Part shown: positions 6,692 to 59,982 of the stretch, piece after piece
Numbering within the stretch: position 1 is the first letter of the stretch
Layout of the letters: each line of letters opens with the position of its first letter
Origin: Tissierellales bacterium
Lineage (GTDB): Bacteria; Bacillota; Clostridia; Tissierellales; Tissierellaceae
NCBI GenBank assembly: GCA_014360205.1
Contig: JACIXZ010000002.1
Location: 62,001-126,000, forward strand
DNA length: 64,000 bases
Reading direction: 5' to 3'
The notes under the pieces: generated by a model
Told to the model about the DNA's origin: nothing
Database searches by the model: none
What the model saw: the letters and a program-made list of their open reading frames with translations, nothing else
Made by a program: the position numbers and the translations under genes

Positions 6692-7831
6692 ATGAAAAAT
6701 AAAATTCAAAAACATGAACCTGACTTTTATATATTATTTTCAACCATAATGTTAGTTTTTATCGGAGTAGTTATGGTATATAGTGCAAGTTCTCCTAAAG
6801 CTTTGGCTGATTTTGGAGACCCACTACATTTATTCAAAAGACAGTTTATTTGGGCTATAGTTGGACTTAGTGTAATGATATTATTAATGAATGTAGATTA
6901 TCGTATTTTGAAGAAAAATGCTGGAATTATTTATTTAATAACAATATTATCTGGATTATTGATTTTTACTCCTTTAGGCATTGAATTAAAAGGGGCTAGA
7001 AGATGGATTAATTTAGGCTTTACAACTTTTATGCCTTCTGATGCCATAAAACTTGGAAGCATAATATTTTTTGCATCATTTTTAGAAAACAAGAAAGAAA
7101 AGGTATCTACATTTAGAAATGGGTTAATCCCTGCTTTTTTAATAATTGGATTATCCACTGGATTAGTATATTTACAAAAAGATTTAAGTACTTCTGCAAC
7201 AGTAGCAGGGACAATGATAAGCATGTATTTTATTGCTGGTATGCCATATTATGTAATATTTATATCTGGTTTAGCATCTGTTGCATTCTTAAGATTTGCT
7301 ATTTTTTCTGAGGGCAATGAGTATAGGTTAGAGAGAGTCAAAGCATTTAGAGATCCATTTGCTGATAAATTAGGAGATGGGTATCAAATAGTTCAGTCTC
7401 TCTATGCATTAGGCTCTGGCGGGTTATTTGGAGTAGGACTTGGAAAGAGCAAACAAAAATTTTTTTACATACCGGAAGCATATAATGATTTTATTTTTTC
7501 CATTATAGGAGAAGAGTTAGGTTTTGTTGGGACAACATTTGTAATTGCTCTTTTTTTTATAATCATAATTAGAGCATTCAAAGTAGCCATTAACTCACAA
7601 GATAGATTTGCATTTTTTGTTGCCAGTGGGATTGGTTTTTTAGTAGCTATTCAATCATTAATGAATATTGCTGTAGTTACATCATCTATACCAGCTACTG
7701 GAATAAACTTACCATTTATTAGTTCTGGTGGAACATCTTTGATATTTTATTTAGCAAGTATTGGAATACTACTTAATATATCAAGATATACAATAAAAGA
7801 TAGGAGCATTAAAAATGAACATAATAGTTAG
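6692..7831 (+). CDS. ftsW: SEDS peptidoglycan glycosyltransferase FtsW/SpoVE
   Basis: This 379-residue, roughly ten-helix SEDS protein polymerises lipid II at the septum together with the class B transpeptidase. Family marks are the N-terminal GVVMVYSAS, QKDLSTSATVAGT in the middle, and a C-terminal half with GGLFGVGLGKSKQKFFYIPEAYNDFIFS and LPFISSGGTSL. Position between murD and murG is the classical ftsW/spoVE position; the sequence alone cannot separate the two names. ATG 6692 is preferred because GGAGTGA lies 4-5 bases upstream, while an in-frame GTG at 6683 lies on that site. Confidence 0.92.
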   Translation: MKNKIQKHEPDFYILFSTIMLVFIGVVMVYSASSPKALADFGDPLHLFKRQFIWAIVGLSVMILLMNVDYRILKKNAGIIYLITILSGLLIFTPLGIELKGARRWINLGFTTFMPSDAIKLGSIIFFASFLENKKEKVSTFRNGLIPAFLIIGLSTGLVYLQKDLSTSATVAGTMISMYFIAGMPYYVIFISGLASVAFLRFAIFSEGNEYRLERVKAFRDPFADKLGDGYQIVQSLYALGSGGLFGVGLGKSKQKFFYIPEAYNDFIFSIIGEELGFVGTTFVIALFFIIIIRAFKVAINSQDRFAFFVASGIGFLVAIQSLMNIAVVTSSIPATGINLPFISSGGTSLIFYLASIGILLNISRYTIKDRSIKNEHNS

Positions 7832-26842: not shown

Positions 26843-27057
26843 AAATTTAATATAAACAATGATAAGAAGTAGTAAGATATGCTTTAATTTCCAGAGAGTT
26901 GTCGAATGGTGAAAGGCAATATTTAGGGTATCTGAACTCGTCTTAGAGTTTCCAAGCTAATTGGACGGGATATCTCGTTATATAAATGAGTGGATTAATC
27001 AAAAAGAGTGGTACCGCGGAAAAACCTTTCGTCTCTAAGACGAAAGGTTAATTTTTT
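26843..27057 (+). ncRNA. T-box leader of leuS, leucine specific
   Basis: The leader has stem I sequences, the T-box motif AGTGGTACCGCGG (27007-27019) that pairs with the uncharged tRNA acceptor end in the antiterminator, and an intrinsic terminator. The terminator is a perfect 12-bp stem (27023-27034 with 27038-27049) with a 3-base loop and six T from 27052. A CTC at 26937-26939, in the GAACTC of the specifier region, is the probable leucine specifier codon. Low charged tRNA-Leu would therefore allow read-through into leuS. Confidence 0.93.
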
Positions 27058-45797: not shown

Positions 45798-47474
45798 ATG
45801 CAAAAGACAACTCTAAAAATTGGAGAAATTTTGTTGTATTCGGGGAAAATAGATTCCCAACAACTAAAAATCGCATTGCAAGAACAAGAAATTAGCGGTA
45901 AAAAAATCGGAGAAATACTTGAGGAAAAGGGATGGGTAACTTCTGATGATATTGTTGAAGTTCTTGAGTATCAATTAGGATTTCCAAGAGTAGATCTTAG
46001 CAAATATGAAGTAAATGAAAAAGTAGTTAATATATTGCCTGAACAAATTGTCAGAAAATATATTTTGATTCCAATAGATAAACATGAAGATAAACTTGTT
46101 ATTGCCATGGCCGATCCCTTGAACTTCTACGCAGTTGATGATGTTAAATTATATACAAAGATGGATTTAGAGACAGTTATAGCAACGCAATCAGATATAG
46201 AGGCTTTGATAGATAAGTATTATACTGCAGGAGTAAGCAAAAGAGTTTTGCAGGAATTTGACTCGGTTAACAACCAATATGATGATGATTATGTTGAAAA
46301 GGAACAAGCTGAAGTTGCTAGTGCACCTATAGTAAGATTAATTAATACACTTTTTGAACAGGCTTTAAAAATGAGAGCTTCAGATATACATCTTGAACCA
46401 GGTATAGAAGATATAAGAGTAAGATTTAGAATTGATGGTGATTTGACAGAGATAATGAGAATACCAAGATTTAATTTATCTGCGATAGTAACAAGGATAA
46501 AAATCTTAGGGAAGATGAATATTGCTGAAAAAAGAATTCCTCAGGATGGCCGAGTTGAATCTGTTATCAATGGAAAGTCAATAGATATGAGAATTTCATC
46601 ACTTCCTACAGTTTATGGGGAGAAAATAGTTATCAGATTACTTGACAAGGAAAGTTTTAATTTTTCTAAAGAAAAATTAGGATTCACTGAATACGAACTA
46701 ACGAAATTCGATAAAATATTAAGTCAGCCATATGGAATGATACTAGTTACCGGACCAACAGGTAGTGGCAAGACAACTACATTGTATACTGTACTTAAGG
46801 AATTAAATACAGTGGAAAAAAACATAATAACAGTTGAAGATCCAGTTGAATATAAACTCGAAGGTATTAATCAAGTCCAAGTAAATGTAAAAGCAGGATT
46901 GACTTTTGCTTCAGGACTCAGATCTATCTTAAGACAGGATCCGGATATAATAATGGTCGGAGAAATTCGTGACAGTGAAACAGCAGAAATAGCAGTTAGA
47001 GCAGCAATAACTGGGCACCTTGTATTATCTACACTTCATACAAATGATAGCCCTTCTACCATAGCAAGATTAATAGATATGGGAGTAGAACCTTATATGG
47101 TATCTTCATCTGTTATAGGAGTTGTATCGCAAAGACTTGTAAAGTTGTTATGTCCTAAATGTAAAGAAAGCTACATTGCCAGCGAAACTCAAAAAAGAAT
47201 GTTAGGAGTAGAAGATGAAAGTTTAGTTTTACACAAACCCGTTGGATGCAATTCTTGCAATAAAGGTTACAAAGGACGAGCAGCAGTACATGAAATAATG
47301 CCTATAAATGAAGAAATGAGAAGATTGATTGATTTAAATTCCAATACAGACAAATTGAGAGAGCAGGCAATTAAAGATGGGATGACAACACTTCTTCAAT
47401 CTGCGGTAAGCTTAGCTAAAAATGGTCAAACTAGTTATGAAGAAGTAATGAGAGTTGGATTTACTTTAGGATAA
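45798..47474 (+). CDS. pilB: Type IV pilus assembly ATPase PilB
   Basis: This 558-residue hexameric ATPase powers pilus extension. It has an N-terminal GspE/MshEN-like domain (about 1-150), Walker A GPTGSGKT at 319-326, an aspartate/glutamate-rich Walker B (DPDIIMVGEIRDSETAEIA), the His box TGHLVLSTLHTND and the four-cysteine zinc segment (CPKC and CNSC) near 455-495. It works with the inner-membrane platform PilC. It is first of the pilus operon, with GGGG 7 bases before the ATG. Confidence 0.96.
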   Translation: MQKTTLKIGEILLYSGKIDSQQLKIALQEQEISGKKIGEILEEKGWVTSDDIVEVLEYQLGFPRVDLSKYEVNEKVVNILPEQIVRKYILIPIDKHEDKLVIAMADPLNFYAVDDVKLYTKMDLETVIATQSDIEALIDKYYTAGVSKRVLQEFDSVNNQYDDDYVEKEQAEVASAPIVRLINTLFEQALKMRASDIHLEPGIEDIRVRFRIDGDLTEIMRIPRFNLSAIVTRIKILGKMNIAEKRIPQDGRVESVINGKSIDMRISSLPTVYGEKIVIRLLDKESFNFSKEKLGFTEYELTKFDKILSQPYGMILVTGPTGSGKTTTLYTVLKELNTVEKNIITVEDPVEYKLEGINQVQVNVKAGLTFASGLRSILRQDPDIIMVGEIRDSETAEIAVRAAITGHLVLSTLHTNDSPSTIARLIDMGVEPYMVSSSVIGVVSQRLVKLLCPKCKESYIASETQKRMLGVEDESLVLHKPVGCNSCNKGYKGRAAVHEIMPINEEMRRLIDLNSNTDKLREQAIKDGMTTLLQSAVSLAKNGQTSYEEVMRVGFTLG

Positions 47475-47487
47475 GGAGATTTTATTT

Positions 47488-48537
47488 ATGAATATTGATG
47501 ATATTTTATCCGATGCAATAGATATGAAAGCCTCAGATGTTCACATAACAGCTGGAGTAACTCCGATATTTAGAGTTAATGGGGAATTGTTAAATTATGG
47601 GACAACTATTTTAAATCCATTAGATACTGAAAAATTGGTTAAGAAAGTCACCAATGAAAATCAATTCGACAAACTCATTGAATTTGGAGAATATGACTTT
47701 TCATATGCTATTCCAGGCAAAAGCAGGTTTAGAGTAAATGCATACATACAAAGAGGTAGTTTTGGTATGGCATTGAGAATAATACCTTATGAAATACCTT
47801 CAATGGAGTCTTTAGGATTACCAGCTATAATACCAGAACTTTCTGATTTGCCTAGAGGGTTGATATTAGTAACAGGCCCTACAGGTAGTGGAAAATCTAC
47901 TACTTTAGCTACTATGATTAACAAGATAAATTCCGAGAGAAAATGCCACATATTGACATTAGAAGATCCAATTGAATATCTTCATAAGCACAACAAATCA
48001 ATAGTAAACCAAAGAGAAGTTGGAGCAGACACTTTGAGTTTTTCAAATGGGCTAAGGGCTGCCTTAAGAGAGGATCCAGATGTTATTTTAGTCGGTGAAA
48101 TGAGGGATCTTGAAACTATTTCTATCGCCATAACAGCAGCAGAAACTGGACATCTTGTACTATCTACTCTACATACGATAGGAGCACCTCAGACAATAGA
48201 TAGAATAATTGATGTATTTCCTCCTCATCAACAGCAGCAAATTCGAGTTCAACTAGCTTCAGTAATACAAGCGATAATAACCCAGCAGCTTTTACCTCGC
48301 GCAGATGGAAAGGGAAGAATAGCTGCTTTTGAAGTAATGGTGGCTACACCTGCTATAAGAAATCTAATAAGAGAAGACAAAATTCATCAAATAGAAACAG
48401 CTATGCAAACTGGCGCAAAATATAAAATGCAAACTATGGATTCGGCATTATTAAATTTATATAAAAATGGCTCTATAACTAAAGATACTGCTATTTCTAG
48501 AGCTGTAAGCTCAGAAGAGATAAAAAAATATATCTAA
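47488..48537 (+). CDS. pilT: Pilus retraction ATPase PilT
   Basis: This 349-residue secretion ATPase lacks the PilB N-terminal and zinc domains. Walker A is GPTGSGKS at 130-137, the His box is TGHLVLSTLHTI, and the C-terminal AIRNLIRE is the retraction signature of PilT. Its presence indicates that pili are retractile, supporting twitching motility or DNA uptake. It lies 13 bases after pilB. Confidence 0.95.
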   Translation: MNIDDILSDAIDMKASDVHITAGVTPIFRVNGELLNYGTTILNPLDTEKLVKKVTNENQFDKLIEFGEYDFSYAIPGKSRFRVNAYIQRGSFGMALRIIPYEIPSMESLGLPAIIPELSDLPRGLILVTGPTGSGKSTTLATMINKINSERKCHILTLEDPIEYLHKHNKSIVNQREVGADTLSFSNGLRAALREDPDVILVGEMRDLETISIAITAAETGHLVLSTLHTIGAPQTIDRIIDVFPPHQQQQIRVQLASVIQAIITQQLLPRADGKGRIAAFEVMVATPAIRNLIREDKIHQIETAMQTGAKYKMQTMDSALLNLYKNGSITKDTAISRAVSSEEIKKYI

Positions 48538-48549
48538 TAGGTGGTATAT

Positions 48550-49749
48550 ATGAAATATAAATATGTAGCTCTAACAAAAGATGGCTTTAAAATTTCAGGA
48601 TCAATAGAGTCAAACAATGAATCTGAAGTCATAAGCATGATAAGAGGAAATAATTATCTTCCAATTTCAATTGAAAGAGATGTTGAATCTGAAGCAAAAG
48701 TTGAAATATTTGCCAAAAAAGTAAAAAAGAAAGATTTAGCTGTCTTTTGTAGACAATTTTACACAATGTTAGATGCTGGACTAGGCATAGTGAAATGTTT
48801 AGAAATTTTATCCGTTCAGACAGAAAACAAAACTTTAAAGAAAGCTTTAACTGAGGTAGGTGAGGATGTACAAAAGGGAGTTACATTATCAGAAGCTATG
48901 AGAATACACGAAAAAGTGTTTCCTTCCATACTTATAAACATGGTTGAAGCAGGAGAAGTCAGTGGTAATCTAGACACAATACTTGAAAGAATGGCAGTTC
49001 ACTTTGAAAAAGAAAACAAGACTGAAAACAAAGTAAGAAGTTCAATGGTATATCCAATAGTACTCATGGTAGTAAGTATTGCTGTTGTTATATTTATGTT
49101 AATATTCATATTGCCAACATTTGTAGGCATGTTTGAAGGTAGCGATACACCTCTGCCTTTACCAACACGAATACTCATAGGATTGTCAGACTTTCTGAAA
49201 TCCTATTGGTATATATTCATTGGAGTAGTGGCATTAATAGTGTTTGGAATTTCTAGTTATATAAATTCCGAAAGTGGCAGAAGATTTTTTGACAGCATAA
49301 AATTAAAATTGCCAATTGTTAAAGGTCCCACTGTAAAGATAGTGACATCAAGGTTTACTAGGACTCTGTCAACACTTATGTCATCTGGCATTCCGTTATT
49401 AAGAAGTATGGAGGTGGTATCAAAAGTAGTAAACAACAAAGTCGTAGAAGAAAAGCTCATCTTAGGTATAGAGGACATACGAAGAGGAGTGCCATTGTCA
49501 CGTATGATAAGGGATATAGAAATTTTCCCACCAATGGTAGATTCTATGGTAAAGATCGGGGAGGAATCAGGAGCACTTGATGATATCCTGCTAAAAACAG
49601 CTGATTTCTACGACGAAGAGGTAGATGTAGCATTGACTAAACTAACAAGCATGTTAGAACCCTTAATGATTGTATTTATGGCACTAATTATAGGTTTTAT
49701 CGTCATAGCAATGTATCTACCAATGTTTGAAGTAATAAATACAATTTAG
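48550..49749 (+). CDS. pilC: Pilus platform protein PilC
   Basis: This 399-residue GspF-family membrane protein has two homologous cytoplasmic domains (about 65-190 and 265-390), each with family motifs (FCRQFYTMLDAGLGIVKCLEIL and FTRTLSTLMSSGIPLLRSMEVV), and three membrane helices (about 165-190, 215-235, 368-395). It links the PilB and PilT motors to pilin subunits. ATG 48550 is chosen for its AGGTGG spacing over the GTG at 48541. Confidence 0.95.
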   Translation: MKYKYVALTKDGFKISGSIESNNESEVISMIRGNNYLPISIERDVESEAKVEIFAKKVKKKDLAVFCRQFYTMLDAGLGIVKCLEILSVQTENKTLKKALTEVGEDVQKGVTLSEAMRIHEKVFPSILINMVEAGEVSGNLDTILERMAVHFEKENKTENKVRSSMVYPIVLMVVSIAVVIFMLIFILPTFVGMFEGSDTPLPLPTRILIGLSDFLKSYWYIFIGVVALIVFGISSYINSESGRRFFDSIKLKLPIVKGPTVKIVTSRFTRTLSTLMSSGIPLLRSMEVVSKVVNNKVVEEKLILGIEDIRRGVPLSRMIRDIEIFPPMVDSMVKIGEESGALDDILLKTADFYDEEVDVALTKLTSMLEPLMIVFMALIIGFIVIAMYLPMFEVINTI

Positions 49750-49784
49750 GCAATACTATTTTAAATTATAAAGGAGGAAGAAAA

Positions 49785-50189
49785 ATGATTAATTACATTC
49801 AAAGAAAGAGAAACAAAAAAGGTTTTACACTTATTGAACTAGTAGTTGTAATTGCAATACTAGGAATCCTAGCAGCACTTGCTATTCCTAGATTTACAGG
49901 CACTAGAGTCTCAGCAAATACTCAGACAGTTATTTCGAATCTAAGAAGTATAGAATCTGCTGTTGAATTATATGTAGCACAAACTAATAGTGAAATCGGG
50001 GATGTAGATGTACTAAGTAACCCCCCAGGTGTGCTAGAATCTGTAATGGAAAATTGGCCTAAAGGCCCTGGAAATGCTGAGTATTATGTTGTTGATGGAA
50101 AGCCAGCTGTTGTATTTAATGGGTTAACTGTTGATGAAGCAAAATTTTCAAAAACAGGCACAGGCAATTATTATTATATAGCCAGATAA
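49785..50189 (+). CDS. pilA: Major type IV pilin (PilA)
   Basis: This 134-residue prepilin has a 13-residue basic leader, cleavage at G13/F14, and E18 as the conserved +5 glutamate in FTLIELVVVIAILGILAALAIP. The mature part is short (about 120 residues), lacks cysteines, and ends with AKFSKTGTGNYYYIAR. An AAGGAGGAAG site is the strongest in the operon, as expected for the major subunit. PilD processes it. Confidence 0.93.
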   Translation: MINYIQRKRNKKGFTLIELVVVIAILGILAALAIPRFTGTRVSANTQTVISNLRSIESAVELYVAQTNSEIGDVDVLSNPPGVLESVMENWPKGPGNAEYYVVDGKPAVVFNGLTVDEAKFSKTGTGNYYYIAR

Positions 50190-50200
50190 CTTCATCACTT

Positions 50201-52063
50201 ATGTTTAAACTCATATATCTATATCTAACACTTACATTGATCCCGATATTTAACGCTGGGATGGATAATGATATAGTAAACTTCCTCCTAATCTTTGGAT
50301 TAGGAGGTATGGTTTACTATACTTTTAAAAATAAAGATGGAATAAATATAGAAAAATATTCGCCACTTTATTTTTATATATTTTTTCTTTTATTATCAGG
50401 ATTAAGCTTTTTTTGGAGCATATATAAACTTAGGACTATCATAGAATTTTTACAGCTAGTGCTTTATGGTTTGGTTTTATATTTGACAATTAATCTCACA
50501 AAAGAAGAAAAAATAAAGACAATTAAAATTGTCACATTGTTTGGAAGTTTAATTGCGCTTCTTGGGATACTTGAGTATGTATTTATAGAACCACAGCGTA
50601 TTGTGTCTACTTTTTTTAATCCAAATCCTTTTGGCACATATTTAGTTATGCTTCATTTATTTACTCTAGGTTTATTCCTTAAGACTAAGGAGAAAAAGTA
50701 TGCTATATCATCAGTTATATTTTTTATAGCACTACTATTAAGTGGGTCAAGAGGAGCATTGATTTCATTAGCAGTTGCACTTCCATTTATATTCATTGAC
50801 AGCAAAGGTCGATTTAAGAGTGATTTATTAAAGGTTATATTTATCGTTATAATAGGTTTTGTTTCTACACGATTTTTAGTATTTATAACTCCATACATAC
50901 AACAGAATTTAAATGTTAATATAGATTTTTTAAATAATTTAATTAGGAAAGATTCTCTAACGGGAACATCATTTATTGGAAGAATAGAATTTTGGAAAGC
51001 GGGTTTAAGGGCATTTACTGAAAAACCAATAATAGGTTTTGGTTTGGGTACATTTTTTTCTTCATATTATGTAGGATATGGAAACAATCAGTGGTACTCA
51101 AGATTTGCACATAACCACTATATACAAACTTTAACAGAATTAGGTATAATAGGATTTATTTTATTTTTAATATTTGTTGGTTCTGTTATTTTTACATTTT
51201 TTAAGATTTATAAAAAAGAGCATGATGTATATTATATAGGATCTTTTGCTGCAATCATAGCATTTTTTGCTCATATTTTCATAGAATTTAGCTGGAACTT
51301 TCCAGCGGTTACCATGACAGCGTTTTGGATAATTGGATTGAATTTATATAGTGATAAATCAAAGGGTACTTTAAATATAAAGCCTATGTTTTCTAGGATA
51401 ATATCAATAGGTTTATTAATATTAGTTATATTGCATACTGTATCTACAAATGCCTATAAAATAGGATTTAAATTTGAAGATAACGGAGATGATTTAAAAG
51501 CTCTAAAAGTTTATAAAACTATAAACACCATATATCCAATTAATCCGAATGGAATGCTTTTTGAAAGCAATATTTATGTTAAAGATTACAACGAGACTTT
51601 AGATTTGGAAAAGCTTGATAATGGGATAGAACTAGCTAAGAAAGCGACAGAACTAGCTCCATTTGATGGTAAACTTCATACACACTTAGCCCAGCTGTAT
51701 TATTCAAAAGGTGATTATGACAATGCTAAGAAAGAATATGAATTGGGGAAAGAATACGCTGCATATGTCGTTTCTAGGCATTTTGAATTAGCAAGGTTTT
51801 ATTTGTCGCAAGGAGAGATTGATAATGCAATAAATACTCTTTTAGAAGCTGCTGAATTGGGAAAATATCAAATAATGGCATTGTCAGAATCTGATAAACA
51901 GATAGGAGTATTAGATGCAGTAAATATTCATATTCTTCTTTATGATATTTATATAAAAACTGGCAAAGAAGATTTAGCTAAAAAAGAAGCTGATATAATT
52001 TTAGACTATTACAACCAATACGAATTCTTAAAAGACTATATTAATATAGATGCTTTTAAATGA
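50201..52063 (+). CDS. Wzy/O-antigen-ligase family membrane protein with C-terminal TPRs
   Basis: This 620-residue protein has about ten membrane helices (to about 410) and a hydrophilic C-terminal part with tetratricopeptide-like repeats (about 410-600, for example LHTHLAQLYYSKGDYDNAKKEYELGKEY). H304-N305 begins the motif HN-x9-GxxG in the large periplasmic-type loop, the WaaL/PglL signature for transferring lipid-linked glycans. Inside a pilus operon, just after pilA, it could O-glycosylate pilin, or polymerise a glycan. No ribosome-binding site is visible before ATG 50201, so expression may be low or the start wrong. Confidence 0.82.
   Translation: MFKLIYLYLTLTLIPIFNAGMDNDIVNFLLIFGLGGMVYYTFKNKDGINIEKYSPLYFYIFFLLLSGLSFFWSIYKLRTIIEFLQLVLYGLVLYLTINLTKEEKIKTIKIVTLFGSLIALLGILEYVFIEPQRIVSTFFNPNPFGTYLVMLHLFTLGLFLKTKEKKYAISSVIFFIALLLSGSRGALISLAVALPFIFIDSKGRFKSDLLKVIFIVIIGFVSTRFLVFITPYIQQNLNVNIDFLNNLIRKDSLTGTSFIGRIEFWKAGLRAFTEKPIIGFGLGTFFSSYYVGYGNNQWYSRFAHNHYIQTLTELGIIGFILFLIFVGSVIFTFFKIYKKEHDVYYIGSFAAIIAFFAHIFIEFSWNFPAVTMTAFWIIGLNLYSDKSKGTLNIKPMFSRIISIGLLILVILHTVSTNAYKIGFKFEDNGDDLKALKVYKTINTIYPINPNGMLFESNIYVKDYNETLDLEKLDNGIELAKKATELAPFDGKLHTHLAQLYYSKGDYDNAKKEYELGKEYAAYVVSRHFELARFYLSQGEIDNAINTLLEAAELGKYQIMALSESDKQIGVLDAVNIHILLYDIYIKTGKEDLAKKEADIILDYYNQYEFLKDYINIDAFK
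50284..50307 (+). other. 10-bp perfect hairpin inside the ligase gene
   Basis: CCTCCTAATC (50284-50293) pairs perfectly with GATTAGGAGG (50298-50307) over TTTG. It lies about 95 bases after the pilA stop in the first 35 codons of the ligase gene. It has no T tract. It could stabilise the pilA mRNA end, or reduce downstream expression relative to pilA. Confidence 0.5.
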
Positions 52064-52076
52064 TAAGGAGCAATAG

Positions 52077-52835
52077 ATGAGTATAATCATTTTTCTATTT
52101 GGATTAGCAATTGGTTCATTTACAAATGTTTTAATATATAGGCTGCCCAGGGAAGAAAGCATTGTATTTCCTGGGTCACATTGCCCAAATTGCAACCACG
52201 AATTAAAGTGGTATGACAATATACCTCTTTTCTCTTATTTGATTTTAAAAGGCAAATGCCGTTATTGTGATGAAAAGATAAGCTTTAGATATCCTCTTAT
52301 TGAGTTTATAAATGGAATTATCTATGTGCTATTATTTATTACATATGGGTTAAGTCTTCATTTTATATATTTATCGTTGCTTACTTCTGTATTACTTAGC
52401 ATAGCTATAATAGATATAAAACACCAAATCATACCAGATAGTTTAGTTATTAGCGTATTTGTAATGAGTATTTTATTTAAGGCTATCAATTTCTTTATTT
52501 ATGGTGTACCGTTTGAAATTCTTGATAGCCTATTTGGTACTATAGTTGGGGTTGGGTTTTTTTTACTTCTTCTACTTGTTTCACATGGTGGCATGGGTGG
52601 TGGAGACATAACTTTAATTGGCGCACTAGGCTTTATACTCGGCTTAAGAAATACTATCTTAACCATACTATTATCGTTTATAATCGGAGCAATCATATCT
52701 TTAATCTTACTTATTTTTAAATTTAAGACGATGAAGGATCCTATTCCATTTGGACCTTTTATTATATTAGCATTTTATTTATCATATTTTTTCTCAGATA
52801 GAATCATATCATTTTATTTTTCACTCTTTGTATAG
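52077..52835 (+). CDS. pilD: Prepilin peptidase PilD
   Basis: This 252-residue A24 aspartic peptidase removes prepilin leaders and N-methylates the new N-terminus. It has the four-cysteine zinc domain (C36, C39, C61, C64), about seven helices, and catalytic D113 (in IIDIKHQIIPD) and D177 (in GMGGGD). The four prepilins encoded around it are its substrates. AAGGAG precedes the ATG by 6 bases. Confidence 0.95.
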   Translation: MSIIIFLFGLAIGSFTNVLIYRLPREESIVFPGSHCPNCNHELKWYDNIPLFSYLILKGKCRYCDEKISFRYPLIEFINGIIYVLLFITYGLSLHFIYLSLLTSVLLSIAIIDIKHQIIPDSLVISVFVMSILFKAINFFIYGVPFEILDSLFGTIVGVGFFLLLLLVSHGGMGGGDITLIGALGFILGLRNTILTILLSFIIGAIISLILLIFKFKTMKDPIPFGPFIILAFYLSYFFSDRIISFYFSLFV

Positions 52836-52866: not shown

Positions 52867-53925
52867 TTGGTCTCTTTTAATTCAAAAAAAATGATCAGTT
52901 TGAATTTTACACCAGATAGTATCAATGTTGTTTCAGGAAAATTCAACAAAAAAACAGTAAATATTGATAGAGTTTTTAGAGTGGAGCTTGGTGATGGAAT
53001 ATACGAGGATGGAGAAATACTTGATATGGAGAAAATGTCTTATGTTCTTCAAAACTCACTATCCCTAAATAAAATAAACACTCAAGAAGCAATAGCTGTA
53101 ATAAATTCTACTTCAGTCGTTATGAGGGAAGCTACATTCCCTAAGGTTGAGAAAGAAGAATTGGATTCAATTATCAATTACCAGATTGAAGAATATATTC
53201 CAGTAAACCCTGAAGACTATGTAGTAAAATATCTTGACTTAGGAACAGTACTAGAAGAAGGGCTTGAAAAACAATCAGTTCTTCTTATCGGGATAAAGGA
53301 TAGCATGATTCAAGCTCACATGACATTATTGAAAGAATGTAAATTAAAACCTACAGTTATGGATTATGAAGGCAATGCTATAACAAAACTCATAAATATT
53401 GGAGGCAGAATAAATACTCTTATACCTAAAGCAAGGAGTGTCGCAGTTGTCAATTTAAGTTTAAAACAGACGGACTTAGTAATTATAGACGACAAGAATT
53501 TAAGAATATCTAGAATAATTGATAAGAGCTTAAAGGATTGCCTGAATAATCTTAAGGTACAATTTTCAGATTTAGATGAAGAAGCTTTAAAAGATAAGAT
53601 GTTTTCTCTATATACTCTAAAGGATAGTGAAAATGAATCGGATAAGTTTTTATATACTTTGATTAGAACTGAAATTTATGAAATATTAGAAAGAATAGAA
53701 CTTATAATTAGATATTATAGAACTAGGGAGAATGTAAACCCTATTAATTACATTGTTTTAAGAGGAATAGGTTCTGAAATAATTGGCATAGAAGATATAT
53801 TTAAAGAGTTTTTTGATATTGACACATATGGGCTTAGGAATATGGAAAATATAAAACTTCCAACATATCTAAATATATATGCAGCTGCTGTTGGTGGACT
53901 GATTAGGTTAGATGAGGTGAGATAA
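52867..53925 (+). CDS. pilM: Pilus alignment protein PilM (actin-like ATPase)
   Basis: This 352-residue cytoplasmic protein has an actin-like fold with MISLNFTPDSINVVSGKF in the nucleotide-binding start and EATFPKVEKEELDSIINYQIEEYIPVNPEDYVVKY, typical of PilM. PilM binds the short cytoplasmic N-terminus of PilN. The start is TTG at 52867 with AAGGGGGG 5 bases upstream. Its stop overlaps the pilN start in TAATG. Confidence 0.88.
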   Translation: MVSFNSKKMISLNFTPDSINVVSGKFNKKTVNIDRVFRVELGDGIYEDGEILDMEKMSYVLQNSLSLNKINTQEAIAVINSTSVVMREATFPKVEKEELDSIINYQIEEYIPVNPEDYVVKYLDLGTVLEEGLEKQSVLLIGIKDSMIQAHMTLLKECKLKPTVMDYEGNAITKLINIGGRINTLIPKARSVAVVNLSLKQTDLVIIDDKNLRISRIIDKSLKDCLNNLKVQFSDLDEEALKDKMFSLYTLKDSENESDKFLYTLIRTEIYEILERIELIIRYYRTRENVNPINYIVLRGIGSEIIGIEDIFKEFFDIDTYGLRNMENIKLPTYLNIYAAAVGGLIRLDEVR

Positions 53926-54500
53926 TGAGAGATCTAAATTTTTTTGAACCTTATATTGAAAAGAAGCAAACCAGGATAACATTTACCAATATTTTATATG
54001 CTTTAATAATAATTTCTTTGGTGGTAGTTGTTACATTAGGAGTTTATAATCAAACAAAAATATCTAACCTTAATAAAGAAATCAAATTTAGAGAAGATAT
54101 TGTCAACGATCCACAAACTGTTGCTAAAGTAGAAGAAATAAAAAAATTTGATGATGAAGTAAAACAATTTAAAGTTGAAGTTGATAAGATTATATCACTT
54201 GACAAAAGTATTGTAGAAAATGAAATAATCTCGACTGATCTTTTCAAAGAAATCAGTAAAAGGCTGCCAGATGATGTTTTTATTTCAAATATCCAAGCTT
54301 CTAATAACAGCATCAATATATCGGGTTTTTCAATGGATAGATATTCAATTGCAGAATTTCAAAAAGGGTTAGAAACTATTGATATAATCGACAGCACATT
54401 TGTGCCATCTATTAACAAAGTAGATTCATATTATACATTTAGTGTAAATATTGGAATAAGGGAGGTGCAGGAAGATGGAGAAGAAACCGAAGAGCAATAA
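53925..54500 (+). CDS. pilN: Pilus alignment protein PilN
   Basis: This 191-residue bitopic protein starts RDLNFFEPYIEKK, which matches the PilN N-terminal peptide that docks on PilM (usually IN LLP), then has a membrane helix (about 22-41) and an extracytoplasmic coiled coil plus a ferredoxin-like domain (ISKRLPDDVFISNIQ...). It links the cytoplasmic ring to PilO. It overlaps pilO by 26 bases, so the two are coupled. Confidence 0.88.
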   Translation: MRDLNFFEPYIEKKQTRITFTNILYALIIISLVVVVTLGVYNQTKISNLNKEIKFREDIVNDPQTVAKVEEIKKFDDEVKQFKVEVDKIISLDKSIVENEIISTDLFKEISKRLPDDVFISNIQASNNSINISGFSMDRYSIAEFQKGLETIDIIDSTFVPSINKVDSYYTFSVNIGIREVQEDGEETEEQ

Positions 54501-55929
54501 GCGCAAGTCTCTATTAAATAGGCCTCTTACTAAAAATGAAAAGATATTATTGAGTTTATTAGGAATAGCTTTAATTGTTTTTTTAGGCAATTATTTCATT
54601 TTAGCACCTCAAGCAGCTAAGATATCAGAATTAGAAACTAAAAAGACTGACCTAGATCTGCAGATAGAAGAAATAAACGAAATCATGAAAAAAGAATCGG
54701 ATATAAAAAAGGAATGGATTATGCTTGAAAGAGAGAGAAATGAAATTTTAAAAAACTATTTTCCTGCTCTTGACCAAGCTCAGATTATCTATTTGTTAAA
54801 TGATATGCTGCCATTTGAAAATGTAGAGATTTCTGACTATAGCTTCAGTCAACCTTCAATAGAAACTATTTCTGATACAGAAGTGAAAAAAATGGATGTA
54901 ACTGTGCCATTTAAAAGTAGCTACGAAGGGATGTTAGAACTAGTAAGTATAATAAAAGAAAGTCCAAGAAGAATGTCAATTCAAAATTTATCTATGGATA
55001 GATTAGATGACAAAGCCGTTACCGGAAACTTAAACTTTAAAGTATATAGTCTAGAGGGTTTAGTAGATGAAGATCCAAATGTTATATATGTTGACATTTA
55101 CGATGGTTATGAAAATAAAAATATCGTAAGTAGTTTTGAAGGGTTTAATAAATATTCAAGTGATGATTCAACAGGTACAGATGGTTCAGGTGGTGGGAAT
55201 GGTTCAGGCGGCGTCGGTGGTGGAGGCTCTGGAACTCCTGGAGATAGCGAAGTTGCTGTAGAAATCAAAGGAGATATTATAAATGACTTTGAAGTAAAAA
55301 ATTATTTCTTTATACCATCACATGAATATACTTATGGAAATGTTATGCCTAGCACCATAAAGAAATCAGGCAAATATTCAGCTAGACTTGAGTACAACAT
55401 AATAGCACTCGAAGATGAAAATCGAGTCTATGTTGATATAACTAATCAAAAAATACAATTAAATCATTCTCCTGAAAGACTATCACTATGGGTATACTCT
55501 TTCGCCTACAGCCCTGGGGATATTGGGGTAAGAATAACTACAAACAATGGAGATGCAATGCACATTAAAATGCAGGAAGGTATTTCTTGGCTAGGTTGGA
55601 AAAACTTTAATATAGATTTACCAAAAGAACTATCCTTATATCCAATTAAAATAACTAGCATATATTACGAAGTGCCTAAGAATACTGATGATTTCGGTGT
55701 TATATTATTTGATAAATTAGAAATATTTTACCCTCATCACTTTGAAAACGAAGGACAAGAAATAAGTGAATATTTCTTCTATAAAGTAGTTACAGGGGAT
55801 ACTATAACCGATATATCAAGGAGATTTTACGGGACTACTGATTACAAAGATGAGATCATGAAAAATAACAACATTTCAACAGGGGACATACTTGTTCCTG
55901 GAAGAATTTTAGTATTGAAAAAGAGATAG
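54475..55929 (+). CDS. pilO: PilO fused to a carbohydrate-binding-like domain and LysM
   Basis: This 484-residue protein is more than twice the normal PilO length (about 200). Residues 1-195 are PilO: a membrane helix at about 24-44, a coiled coil (52-95) and a ferredoxin-like domain. A serine/glycine linker follows (229-257), then a beta-sandwich domain (262-421) with LSLWVYSFAYSPGDIGVRIT, WLGWKNFNIDLP and LFDKLEIFYP, like galactose-binding-like modules of cell-wall enzymes. The last 50 residues (435-483, YKVVTGDTITDISRRFYG) are a LysM domain. It could fix the pilus machine to peptidoglycan. The start has GGAGGTG upstream. Confidence 0.88.
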   Translation: MEKKPKSNKRKSLLNRPLTKNEKILLSLLGIALIVFLGNYFILAPQAAKISELETKKTDLDLQIEEINEIMKKESDIKKEWIMLERERNEILKNYFPALDQAQIIYLLNDMLPFENVEISDYSFSQPSIETISDTEVKKMDVTVPFKSSYEGMLELVSIIKESPRRMSIQNLSMDRLDDKAVTGNLNFKVYSLEGLVDEDPNVIYVDIYDGYENKNIVSSFEGFNKYSSDDSTGTDGSGGGNGSGGVGGGGSGTPGDSEVAVEIKGDIINDFEVKNYFFIPSHEYTYGNVMPSTIKKSGKYSARLEYNIIALEDENRVYVDITNQKIQLNHSPERLSLWVYSFAYSPGDIGVRITTNNGDAMHIKMQEGISWLGWKNFNIDLPKELSLYPIKITSIYYEVPKNTDDFGVILFDKLEIFYPHHFENEGQEISEYFFYKVVTGDTITDISRRFYGTTDYKDEIMKNNNISTGDILVPGRILVLKKR

Positions 55930-55939
55930 GGGGATAAGG

Positions 55940-57616
55940 ATGAAGAGGAAAAAGCTTTTTATATTATCAATAACAATACTCCTCCTGACTTTTTCAGGAG
56001 TTGTATATGCTGCATATAGTCCCGACTATGATGCTGGCTATACAGTAGGAAGGGAATACTATGCTAAATATGGAACTGCATTAAATGCAGAAAATGCACT
56101 TACTATTCATGCACTAAATGGATATGATGGATATATTCCAAAAGATGCTACAAATGGGTGGAGAGATTATAGTGAAGGTTTTAAGGCAGGATACAATGAT
56201 GCTTTAAATGGCGTATCCCCTTCAGTAAACTATGCTGATTCACTTGGCAATGCCGAAGGATCACGCTTTGGAGCAAGGGACTATTATATCGGAGTCAGCA
56301 GCAATTGGCTATACAGGCTTCCATCAGACTCTGAAATAGTTAACAAATATAATCTTACACTCATGAATGCTGAATATAGAATTAAATTTTTAGATTCATT
56401 TAAAGCAGCATTTGAAAAGGGATATGTAGATGCCTATGAAAAGGCTTTGATAGAACCAGTTAGAAATAGTATGTCTCAAGGCCTAGCAAATGGAAACAGC
56501 GTAGGTAGTGCTATGGGAAAAACATTTGCAGAAAAAGATTATATTATGAAGAATAATATTAATTTTAAAAGAGATATTCCTACTGAAGAAGAAATCATAA
56601 AAATGTTTAATTTGACGAAAGATACTAAAGAATATAGAGATGCCTTTATTCAAGGTTTTTTAGCTAGTTATGAAGTATCATATAATCAAACTTATAGATC
56701 TCTTGCAGCAAGTGAAGCACAAAATAGAACTGTTTCAAAGATCATTGGCATATCAGGAGATACAATTTCACATAACAATGGGGTTACAGTAACCATTCCA
56801 AGTGGTGTTTTTTACAAAGATGTTTATGTTAGCATTGAAAACCAATATACTGAATATTTCAACAATCAAGGCATGATACTGGTTTCTGATATTTTTAAAA
56901 TAAAGCTTGACAATCCTTCTATTAGTTTGGATAATGATCAAACTATAGACATAGAATTTCCATACTATGGGAAATCAACTAATGTAGGGATATATAAACT
57001 CGTAAATGAAAAATGGTATTACTTGCCAACTATAATTTCTGAAGGTAAAATCAAGGCATCTGTAATGCCGAGCACTATAACAAACAAAGAAAGCATTTAT
57101 GCAGCTTTTATCGATAATGGGCAAAGAACATTAATAGACACAAGAAATCATTGGGCTAAAGATGAAATCAACACTATGGTCAGAAGAAATGTTATATTAG
57201 GATATCCTGACGGAACATTTAGACCAGAAGATAAGATAACACGTGCAGAATTTTTGATTTTACTAAGCAGAATAGAAAATTGGACATTACCTAATTATGT
57301 TGCTAATGCTACCTATTTTAAAGATTATAAAACTTTTGAGAATTACGATAGAATAATTAGCTATTCTCTATCTATGGGATATATTAAAGGTTATCCTGAC
57401 AGGACTTTTAGACCTAACAATAATATTTCATATAAAGAAGTTGAATTAATTATACAAAGAGTGACTAAAAATCCTTCATTCGGGTGGACTGACGTTGCTA
57501 CAAACTTGATGTATGACAAAACAGTGAGATCTAAGAGTTTTGATGATATGAATAATAAAATAACAAGAGCAGAAGCAGCATATATGCTATATTATCTTAA
57601 TGAGTGGAGATATTAG
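55940..57616 (+). CDS. Secreted SLH-domain protein of the pilus operon
   Basis: This 558-residue protein has a signal peptide (about 1-24), a Gly/Tyr-rich segment (25-95), and two copies of a ~70-residue unit at 101-170 and 184-252. These share the pattern PxxxEI...NLT...EYR...F...F...Y...Y. A beta domain (about 275-390, ZU5-like in outline) comes next, then three SLH repeats (399-449, 459-510, 515-556) with GYPDGTFRPEDKITRAEF and GYPDRTFRPNNNIS. SLH repeats bind pyruvylated wall polymers, so it should sit in the S-layer zone. It lies between pilO and the minor pilins; the function is unknown. Confidence 0.85.
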   Translation: MKRKKLFILSITILLLTFSGVVYAAYSPDYDAGYTVGREYYAKYGTALNAENALTIHALNGYDGYIPKDATNGWRDYSEGFKAGYNDALNGVSPSVNYADSLGNAEGSRFGARDYYIGVSSNWLYRLPSDSEIVNKYNLTLMNAEYRIKFLDSFKAAFEKGYVDAYEKALIEPVRNSMSQGLANGNSVGSAMGKTFAEKDYIMKNNINFKRDIPTEEEIIKMFNLTKDTKEYRDAFIQGFLASYEVSYNQTYRSLAASEAQNRTVSKIIGISGDTISHNNGVTVTIPSGVFYKDVYVSIENQYTEYFNNQGMILVSDIFKIKLDNPSISLDNDQTIDIEFPYYGKSTNVGIYKLVNEKWYYLPTIISEGKIKASVMPSTITNKESIYAAFIDNGQRTLIDTRNHWAKDEINTMVRRNVILGYPDGTFRPEDKITRAEFLILLSRIENWTLPNYVANATYFKDYKTFENYDRIISYSLSMGYIKGYPDRTFRPNNNISYKEVELIIQRVTKNPSFGWTDVATNLMYDKTVRSKSFDDMNNKITRAEAAYMLYYLNEWRY

Positions 57617-58074
57617 TGAATGAAAGAAAGGGCTACACACTTATTGAGTTAATTACGGTGTTAGCCCTTATTTCTATCCTGATTATGGTAAGCATTCCCA
57701 ATTCATATATTTTGGTAAGACATAGAGAATACAATGAAATAAAGCAATTTGAAAAGGACTTAAAGTTTGCTAGAGCAAAAGCTATGGTAGAAAATTCACC
57801 TGTCGAATTCATGGTAGATGTTCAACAAAACAAATATAAAATAGTTCAAAATAATAAAGTTATAAAAGAGTATATTTTTAAAAATGGAGTACAATTACAA
57901 TCTATAACTATATCCGACAATAAATCATCACAAAATTGGAGTAGTATAGTTTTTAAGACGACTGGAGCACCTTCTAGTGCAGGCACTATAAATTTTAATA
58001 CTAAAAATTTTGGAAACTATAGTATTACTATCGAGGTAGCAACAGGTAGGATTAATACATATATTAATAGGTGA
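57616..58074 (+). CDS. Minor pilin, GspH/FimT-like
   Basis: This 152-residue prepilin has a 6-residue leader, cleavage at G6/Y7 and E11 at +5 (YTLIELITVLALISILIMVSIP). KFARAKAMVENSPVEFMVD and the following FKTTGAPSSAGTINF match the GspH/FimT beta domain. It is the first of four minor pilins in the order H, I, J, K. The start is GTG at 57616, which shares one base with the SLH stop; GTGGAG is the ribosome-binding site. Confidence 0.88.
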   Translation: MNERKGYTLIELITVLALISILIMVSIPNSYILVRHREYNEIKQFEKDLKFARAKAMVENSPVEFMVDVQQNKYKIVQNNKVIKEYIFKNGVQLQSITISDNKSSQNWSSIVFKTTGAPSSAGTINFNTKNFGNYSITIEVATGRINTYINR

Positions 58075-58078
58075 AATT

Positions 58079-58459
58079 ATGATAAAAAAAGGATTTGTAC
58101 TGATAGAAATCTTAATAGGGATAGCTATTTTGGGGTTAGTAAGTGTGACAAGTTTTAATTTATTAAAAATTAGCTTTACCAATAACGATTTAGTTGAATC
58201 TAGAACAAAGATAATTTACTTATGCCAAAATATAGTAGAAGAGCTAAAATCAGATTCGATTGAAAATGAATTAATATTTGATGAAGTAGTTAATTTAGGA
58301 TCATATGTATATACAAATGATGATATAAAAAACGAATATGTATGTGAGATAAAATTTAACAAGCTAGATAGGAAGTTACTGTTCTATACATGTACTTTAA
58401 AAAGCATAACAAACCCAAAACTGGAGGTTTCATTTGAATGCTCGAGATTTATCAAATGA
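58079..58459 (+). CDS. Minor pilin, GspI/PilV-like
   Basis: This 126-residue prepilin has a 5-residue leader (MIKKG), cleavage at G5/F6 and E10 at +5 (FVLIEILIGIAILGLVSV). Its small size and place second in the group match GspI/PilV. It has three cysteines (in LCQNIVEEL, YVCEIKF and YTCTLK, with another near the end), which may form disulfides. It overlaps the next gene by 26 bases. Confidence 0.85.
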   Translation: MIKKGFVLIEILIGIAILGLVSVTSFNLLKISFTNNDLVESRTKIIYLCQNIVEELKSDSIENELIFDEVVNLGSYVYTNDDIKNEYVCEIKFNKLDRKLLFYTCTLKSITNPKLEVSFECSRFIK

Positions 58460-58979
58460 TGGATTTACTTTAATTGAATTAATTATTTCAATATCGATAA
58501 TTTCAGTAATTATCGTTGGAATATACAACATCATATTTATTTCCACAAAGTCGATGAATTTAGTTGATGAAAAAGACGAATATTTGGTTAGTGGAATATA
58601 TGTGATAGAATATATTTCGGATGAGATTAGAAGTGCAGACCTTATACTGCCTTCATCAATGATTAAAAATTTAGATAAGATGTATCCATATAATTTAAAA
58701 TTCGTTATTTTAAACATAAATGAAGGAAATTATGATTATGTCACTTATTATTACACTGGTAAAGAGATTGTGAGGTTAAATTGCAAATTATCAAATGCAA
58801 ATCTTCCCGAAATATCAAATTTCAATGGATATAATAAGCTTGATATAGGTATTAGCAACATATGGAATACAGGTCTAGAATTAAATAATAATATGATTTA
58901 TTTAGATTTTACTTTTGAAGGGACTCATTCTTTAAGGATTAAAAGTGGGATTAATATAGAAAATAAAATAATTAAATGA
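58434..58979 (+). CDS. Minor pilin, GspJ/PilW-like
   Basis: This 181-residue prepilin has a 10-residue leader, cleavage at G10/F11 and E15 at +5 (FTLIELIISISIISVIIVGIY). EKDEYLVSGIYVIEYISDEIRSADLI is like GspJ/PilW. The start is TTG at 58434, 6 bases after GGAGG; the nearby ATG at 58438 is out of frame. It is third in the minor pilin group. Confidence 0.85.
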   Translation: MNARDLSNDGFTLIELIISISIISVIIVGIYNIIFISTKSMNLVDEKDEYLVSGIYVIEYISDEIRSADLILPSSMIKNLDKMYPYNLKFVILNINEGNYDYVTYYYTGKEIVRLNCKLSNANLPEISNFNGYNKLDIGISNIWNTGLELNNNMIYLDFTFEGTHSLRIKSGINIENKIIK

Positions 58980-58986
58980 GGATAAT

Positions 58987-59982
58987 ATGAGAAAAGGTTC
59001 CATAACTGTATTTGCTTTAATAACAATGTTAATCGTATTTTCAATTTGCTTATATTTATCATATATAACCGTAATGGAAAATCATTTGCAAAACAACTTA
59101 AAATATAAGTTGCAAAACAATTATGATTTAGAGACCTCATTAAATTATATAGTTAATGATTTTAATGTAGTCGATAGTGATATAAACAAGTCAATCATTA
59201 AGTACTGCAATTCACCAACCATAAACAACAAGGATGTTATTTATGTTAAAAATAAAGATGAAAACGATGAGATAGCTGCTGATTTAGAATACAATTTAAA
59301 AGACAATAACACATATTTAAACATCTCAATTAATTCACCAAACTCTAATTTCAATGCTAAGTTAAAAGCAAGTGTTGATTTTGTAAATGAAGTATTTACA
59401 TATAACAAATTGCCGTATGTAAATAAATTAAGTTTTATAGAAAGACCTGATTTAGAAGATGAATTAGTAAGATTTTTTTCCTCTATTGATGATAGCTATA
59501 AAATTCCTCCATTAAAAAGCGGTATGAGTTCACTATCTTTATATCATAGTGAAGAAATTAAATTGAAAAGAATCAATGCTAATCAATACTGGGTTTATCG
59601 AAACGAAGCTATAGAAAATTATAGTATAATGACAAATGAAGTTTTCATCTATATAGAAAACAAAGCTAATTATGATAATGTTAAGTTGACGATTGATTCT
59701 AACAATAAATATGATTATTTAAAAGGCATCATATATGTAGAAGGAGATATTCATATAATCAATAATTTAAATTTTAATGGGATTATCATAATTAACGGAG
59801 GAGAAATCTATATAGACGAAGGCAAGAATGCTACTATCACTGGAAAGATTATCTCAAATAATGAATTTATACTTCCTGATGGATTGCAATTTAAATATTC
59901 ACCAGATATAATGAACAAATATGGGGTATATTTGCCAAATTATATTAAAAGTAAGATTAAAAATGTTAAAATAATCTATTGA
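58987..59982 (+). CDS. Large minor pilin-like protein, GspK/PilX position
   Basis: This 331-residue protein starts MRKGSITVFALITMLIVFSICLYL: a short basic leader ending in G4, then a hydrophobic helix with F rather than E at +5. Lack of E5 and large size are features of GspK, which caps the pseudopilus tip with GspI and GspJ; PilX is another possibility. The C-terminal end has a beta-solenoid-like stretch (GIIYVEGDIHIINNLNFNGIIIINGGEIYIDEG). It is last of the pilus genes and 11 bases before aroK. Confidence 0.72.
   Translation: MRKGSITVFALITMLIVFSICLYLSYITVMENHLQNNLKYKLQNNYDLETSLNYIVNDFNVVDSDINKSIIKYCNSPTINNKDVIYVKNKDENDEIAADLEYNLKDNNTYLNISINSPNSNFNAKLKASVDFVNEVFTYNKLPYVNKLSFIERPDLEDELVRFFSSIDDSYKIPPLKSGMSSLSLYHSEEIKLKRINANQYWVYRNEAIENYSIMTNEVFIYIENKANYDNVKLTIDSNNKYDYLKGIIYVEGDIHIINNLNFNGIIIINGGEIYIDEGKNATITGKIISNNEFILPDGLQFKYSPDIMNKYGVYLPNYIKSKIKNVKIIY

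Follow-up and report, generated by a model that had tools for sequence, protein, structure and literature searches.

A PilO protein with a carbohydrate-binding-module-like sandwich and a LysM domain as a probable wall tether of a monoderm type IVa pilus machine

Pelicic 2019 (PMC6916266) treats as an open question the anchoring of type IV pili in the thick wall of monoderm bacteria and their passage through it. In the available parts of that source, monoderm PilO is described as much larger than its diderm counterpart, with likeness to PilO limited to the N-terminal part, and a role for the enlarged protein in wall translocation or anchoring is called entirely speculative. The locus described here raises this question in a concrete form, since its pilO gene encodes a long extracellular tail in which wall-binding domains can be recognized. 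The reading favoured below, which sequence comparison and structure models make fairly likely, is that the PilO of the window (the whole stretch of 64,000 nucleotides that was analysed) is the PilO of a monoderm type IVa pilus machine turned wall tether. In this group of anaerobes, its sandwich and LysM domains would probably give the pilus machine a direct attachment to the wall.

The pilO frame is intact, shares 26 nt with the end of pilN, and lies in pilM-pilN-pilO order inside a pilus gene cluster (Table 1). The cluster runs pilB, pilT, pilC, prepilin, an O-antigen-ligase-like gene, pilD, pilM, pilN, pilO, a gene for an SLH-domain protein and the minor pilins, and its gene order is much alike in many relatives. 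The O-antigen-ligase-like protein possibly has a role in pilin glycosylation. On the evidence of sequence and models, the identity of the gene as pilO within a type IVa pilus cluster can be regarded as settled, because profile and fold matches are found together with PilM and PilN upstream. When PDB sequences were searched with profile A2, which was built from 49 relatives of the window PilO, Myxococcus xanthus PilO (3jc8_Oa) was matched at E 8.7e-6, and the next matches were far weaker. The model of residues 1-228 (pLDDT 82) consists of a long helix at 20-94 and a ferredoxin-like domain, for which the best Foldseek matches are Myxococcus PilO (5.8e-6) and Pseudomonas PilO (5.3e-4), so that the protein has the parts of a PilO, namely a membrane helix near its N-terminus, a coiled helix and a ferredoxin-like domain. 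Pfam PF04350 does not match the window protein at E<=1 and matches its relatives below the curated cut-off, a score which is a detection threshold and not a biological definition. PilO is a bitopic protein that exposes its C-terminus outside the cell and joins PilN in a complex. Immediately behind the PilO domain (about 55110-55150), most PilO homologues, tail-less ones included, carry a short conserved motif resembling (N/T/S)PF-x-(P/S)(Y/F), of which the window copy, SSFEGFNKY, is degenerate. A search of a defence-system library gave one weak match to the PilO part (a Type I specificity subunit, 0.0027), which was judged spurious.

Table 1. Features of the pilus gene cluster and of the protein encoded by its pilO gene
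Feature	Position in the window	Strand	Evidence or remark
pilB-, pilT- and pilC-like genes and prepilin (pilA)	45798..50189	+	sequence, Pfam; order conserved among relatives
O-antigen-ligase-like (Wzy_C) protein with TPR repeats	50201-52063		between prepilin gene and pilD
prepilin peptidase (pilD-like)	52077..52835	+	sequence and conserved order
pilM	52867..53925	+	Pfam PilM_2 4.8e-18
pilN	53925..54500	+	Pfam PilN 9.6e-12
pilO-like gene, 484 aa (PilO, linker, beta-sandwich, LysM)	54475..55929	+	sequence, Pfam, profile, models
membrane helix running into long coiled helix, residues ~23-94	54541..54756	+	model helix 20-94, pLDDT >88; hydrophobic stretch in sequence
PilO ferredoxin-like domain, residues ~95-195	54757..55059	+	profile, model, Foldseek
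flexible linker, residues ~196-263, Gly/Ser-rich at 228-258	55060..55263	+	pLDDT <50 from residue 202 on
predicted beta-sandwich, galactose-binding/CBM11/FlaA type, residues ~264-424	55264..55746	+	model, fold and profile matches
LysM domain, residues 433-484 (Pfam match 436-481)	55771..55926	+	Pfam PF01476 E 9e-7; own-genome search 33.1 bits; model
SLH-domain secreted protein, 558 aa	55940..57616	+	Pfam SLH 1.2e-24; PDB S-layer proteins 1.6e-8; linkage
minor pilins (GspH-like, two N-methylation proteins) and 331-aa protein in PilX position	57604..59982	+	Pfam, order

The nature of the envelope determines what such a tail could reach. The host genome (1.98 Mb, stated completeness 100%) is assigned by sequence to the genus Soehngenia, Tissierellales, on the basis of a relative of the same genus (G002) whose PilO is identical to that of Soehngenia longivitae, as is a 400-base stretch of the locus. 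No Omp85 was found in this genome, and the one secretin candidate, a match below the cut-off (E 9.7e-4), was rejected because it falls within a gene for an ABC permease, which leaves the genome with no detected secretin. The cell is therefore most likely monoderm, and the premise of the first-pass annotation, a cell without outer membrane or secretin, agrees with what its genome contains. SLH domains bind pyruvylated wall polymer, and this ligand is probably made by the host, because the genome has a TagA-type gene whose neighbour encodes a fusion of a CsaB-type pyruvyl transferase with a glycosyltransferase. An origin of the locus on a plasmid was also considered and rejected, the PilO protein having no match in 72,556 plasmid records.

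The tail itself consists of a linker and two domains. The linker had been characterized at the outset as rich in serine and glycine, which is correct for the window protein at residues ~228-258 but does not extend to its relatives, whose linkers (43-83 residues, median 60) are often not G/S-rich. The next domain had been proposed to be a beta-sandwich of ~160 residues resembling carbohydrate-binding modules (CBMs), and the AlphaFold model of the tail (mean pLDDT 91) bears this out, with an all-beta sandwich that is mostly above 93. Its nearest solved fold is FlaA1, a sheath protein of spirochete flagella (Z 16.6, rmsd 3.0 over 159 residues), followed by CBM11 (6r31, Z 13.3) and CBM27 (1of3, Z 12.7), with further matches to CBM4 and CBM22; the CBM11 and CBM27 scores place the modelled domain among jelly-roll beta-sandwiches. 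At the level of sequence, the profile of the sandwich finds FlaA in the PDB (E 2e-4), and a Pfam scan of 42 copies gave Lyase_N in 10 (best 2.5e-6), FlaA in 10 (3.3e-5) and CBM_11 in 2 (0.013), while the window copy itself matched no family. The identification of the C-terminal domain as LysM is firm, since its Pfam score of 29.2 bits exceeds the curated cut-off of 20.9, and structure prediction, the check that had been suggested for the tail, returned the beta-alpha-alpha-beta arrangement of the LysM fold. LysM domains bind GlcNAc-containing glycans.

Some part of the window protein is matched in 83 of 100 relative genomes, and the full combination of PilO, sandwich and LysM occurs in 46 genomes from 11 family-level groups, including two (f36 and f80) outside the order, a recurrence which, as judged from sequence, is far beyond chance. 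The first-pass annotation had contrasted the window protein with a normal PilO length of about 200 residues and had called for a survey of pilO lengths. That norm holds for diderms, and many PilO proteins in a sample of the phylum are near 200 aa, but it fails for this class: PilO is detectable in 108 of 293 genomes surveyed, and 56 of the 108 frames, measured from stop to stop, have at least 330 aa. Length alone is therefore common in the class, and what is unusual about the window PilO, as far as sequence comparison goes, is its particular domains. Many of the other long clostridial PilO proteins carry a different, beta-rich-looking C-terminal domain of ~150 residues (SDLPT...YVYADN...SYP...DD..PRV), seen at loci L056, L071, L074, L095-L109 and L193-L197, in which Pfam has no match (two members scanned). 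Kinship between this domain and the sandwich was considered and dropped, the hhalign probability of 0.3% giving no evidence for it. Since many clostridial PilO proteins have no recognizable wall-binding module in their C-terminal domain, and some have no C-terminal domain at all, this tether is not required for pili generally.

Evidence also comes from the natural variants of the tail. PilO of G272 has the sandwich and two LysMs, PilO of G012 and G319 has LysM without the sandwich, and PilO of G081, G065, G039, G067 and G042 has the sandwich without LysM. In G362, which belongs to the same family-level group as G272, a 392-aa PilO inside a pilus gene cluster (L181, ORF at 7251, minus strand) is fused to SLH domains (SLH 8e-13), and its residues 203-392 are matched at 2e-53 by the profile of the SLH protein that is encoded downstream of pilO in other genomes. 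A tether predicts that one wall-binding module may replace another, and the observed swapping of LysM, two LysMs and SLH therefore supports tethering of PilMNO to the wall, in so far as sequence comparison can. In G094 (L178, ORFs at 6971 and 7822), PilO and the sandwich-LysM part are two adjacent ORFs with no adjoining SLH gene, so the covalent linkage of PilO to its tail is not always kept. This genome also provides the one point in favour of an artefact, in which a separate wall protein was joined to PilO through an assembly or frame error. Such an accident has almost no chance of being the explanation, and is refuted by the conservation of the fusion, which is repeated in about 45 other genomes, each time as one intact frame.

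The gene that follows pilO provides a further line of evidence. The SLH protein has a signal-peptide-like start, helical-looking GxxxG-rich repeats, a beta region and C-terminal SLH domains; the repeats, of ~100 residues each and probably helical, vary in number, so that the protein ranges from 558 to 895 aa (relatives L116, L127). It is encoded directly downstream of pilO in 42 of the 45 assessable genomes with sandwich and LysM, whereas this is so in 1 of the remaining 51; the arrangement is missing from G008, G048 and G034, with the gene 2 kb away in G034. Within group f13, the SLH gene is present in both genomes with LysM and lacking in all three without it. The Fisher p of 2e-22 for this linkage is inflated and cannot be taken at face value, because shared ancestry leaves only 3 independent contrasts on the PilO tree, which are mostly concordant and point in the same direction (sign test p 0.25).

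The host genome also encodes a second copy of the sandwich, in a 953-aa frame with an NAGPA phosphodiester-glycosidase domain (L171, C45, about 55020-55520), and proteins of 870-960 aa with this combination occur in many relatives. Because the proposed pilus anchor and the putative glycan-processing enzyme share the module, the sequence data suggest a common envelope ligand.

These observations can be assembled into a mechanism for the proposed wall tether. The PilO domain would pair with PilN in a ring round the base of the pilus, and the linker of about 60 residues would extend into the wall, where LysM would grip the glycan strands of peptidoglycan and the sandwich would grip a second wall ligand, which could be a glycan of the wall or else the SLH partner. 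With several copies of PilO in each ring, the result would be a many-point anchor, by which the machine could be held against the pull of PilT retraction, and the SLH protein would sit further out on pyruvylated wall polymer, extending the same tether. The fixing of the PilMNO ring to the wall, as first proposed from the window alone, is well supported by sequence comparison, through the conserved tails, the PilO with two LysMs, the PilO-SLH fusion and the linked SLH gene. A point against it is that GlcNAc polymers other than peptidoglycan are also possible ligands of LysM. The accompanying suggestion from the window, that the tail may align an opening for the pilus, drew no direct support from the comparison.

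The role of the sandwich is the part of this mechanism for which a different assignment has most to be considered. The domain may be protein-binding and FlaA-like, acting on a filament or on the SLH partner, with the wall bound by LysM alone; FlaA is its best match both in structure and in sequence profile. Most of the near folds are nevertheless carbohydrate-binding modules, and the domain also occurs in the NAGPA glycosidase proteins, where it would naturally act on glycans, so that a purely protein-binding sandwich is somewhat doubtful. The function of the whole tail can also be construed differently. It might only time or place assembly, with LysM sending PilO to new or septal wall in a load-free manner, in the way of wall binding in Pseudomonas. 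LysM and PilO are treated together in the available text of a paper on recruitment of the type IVa pilus machinery to future division sites (PMC5285504), but the FimV architecture, with its cytoplasmic TPR domain, is absent from the window protein, and anchoring accommodates two wall modules and an SLH partner at least as well, which makes a placement role unlikely.

A further alternative is that the PilO tails and the SLH protein line a passage through the wall and keep it open, as PilP, TsaP and the secretin do in diderms, and are needed for emergence of the pilus. Such a conduit would account for the large tail that PilO, as a part of the machine, turns towards the wall, for the linked SLH gene and the PilO-SLH fusion, and for an SLH protein built of helical GxxxG-rich repeats in variable number. 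The tail is kept, however, in G008 and G048 without an adjoining SLH gene, and many clostridia have a PilO without any such tail, and the probability assigned to the conduit is accordingly low. The related proposal of an exit port that spans the wall, in which PilO tails and SLH partner together would be the monoderm equivalent of a secretin complex, built from interchangeable wall-binding modules (LysM, CBM-type sandwich, SLH), is regarded as improbable.

Wall anchoring by PilO is not a new idea, and what is new here is the evidence, which consists of an architecture found across the clade, the swapping of modules and the linked SLH gene. In Streptococcus sanguinis, PilO (earlier called PilH, 56.6 kDa) is likewise described as enlarged, with its resemblance to other PilO proteins confined to the N-terminal part, and no wall-binding domain is named for it (PMC6916266, in the text available); compared with it, the wall modules in the present case can be named, as LysM, CBM-type sandwich and SLH partner. 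Another likeness is a PilO homologue with a C-terminal LysM encoded beside the archaellum of Litorilinea aerophila (Chloroflexota), for which the accessible parts of two reports propose a bridge to peptidoglycan, and which is found in 3 of 244 archaellated genomes (PMC12488501, PMC13319060). Both loci have pilN, but that archaellum locus, as described there, is without pilM and its PilO is not said to have a sandwich, whereas the present one is a full type IVa pilus cluster found clade-wide. A LysM that attaches the machinery of type IV pili to peptidoglycan is known from TsaP (Siewering 2014, as cited in the part of PMC13319060 available). TsaP is a separate, free-standing LysM protein that works with the diderm secretin, while here LysM is part of PilO in a genome without a secretin. 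FimV/HubP combines a periplasmic LysM with a large cytoplasmic TPR domain, and differs from the window PilO, which has no TPR match in Pfam and only about 20 residues before its membrane helix. The sandwich shares its fold with FlaA sheath proteins, CBM11 and CBM27 at about 10% identity, but the structures solved so far belong to flagellar sheaths or to glycoside hydrolases. A literature search, in which few subscription papers were covered, returned no PilO with a CBM-type sandwich, no PilO-SLH fusion and no linked SLH gene. The whole clade points to a machine part that could anchor the pilus by named wall-binding domains, and the natural swaps (LysM, two LysMs, SLH, none), together with the linked partner gene, make pilus anchoring in a thick wall testable. 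Elsewhere in the window, a T-box leader is found at 26850-27039 (Rfam RF00230, 121.8 bits).
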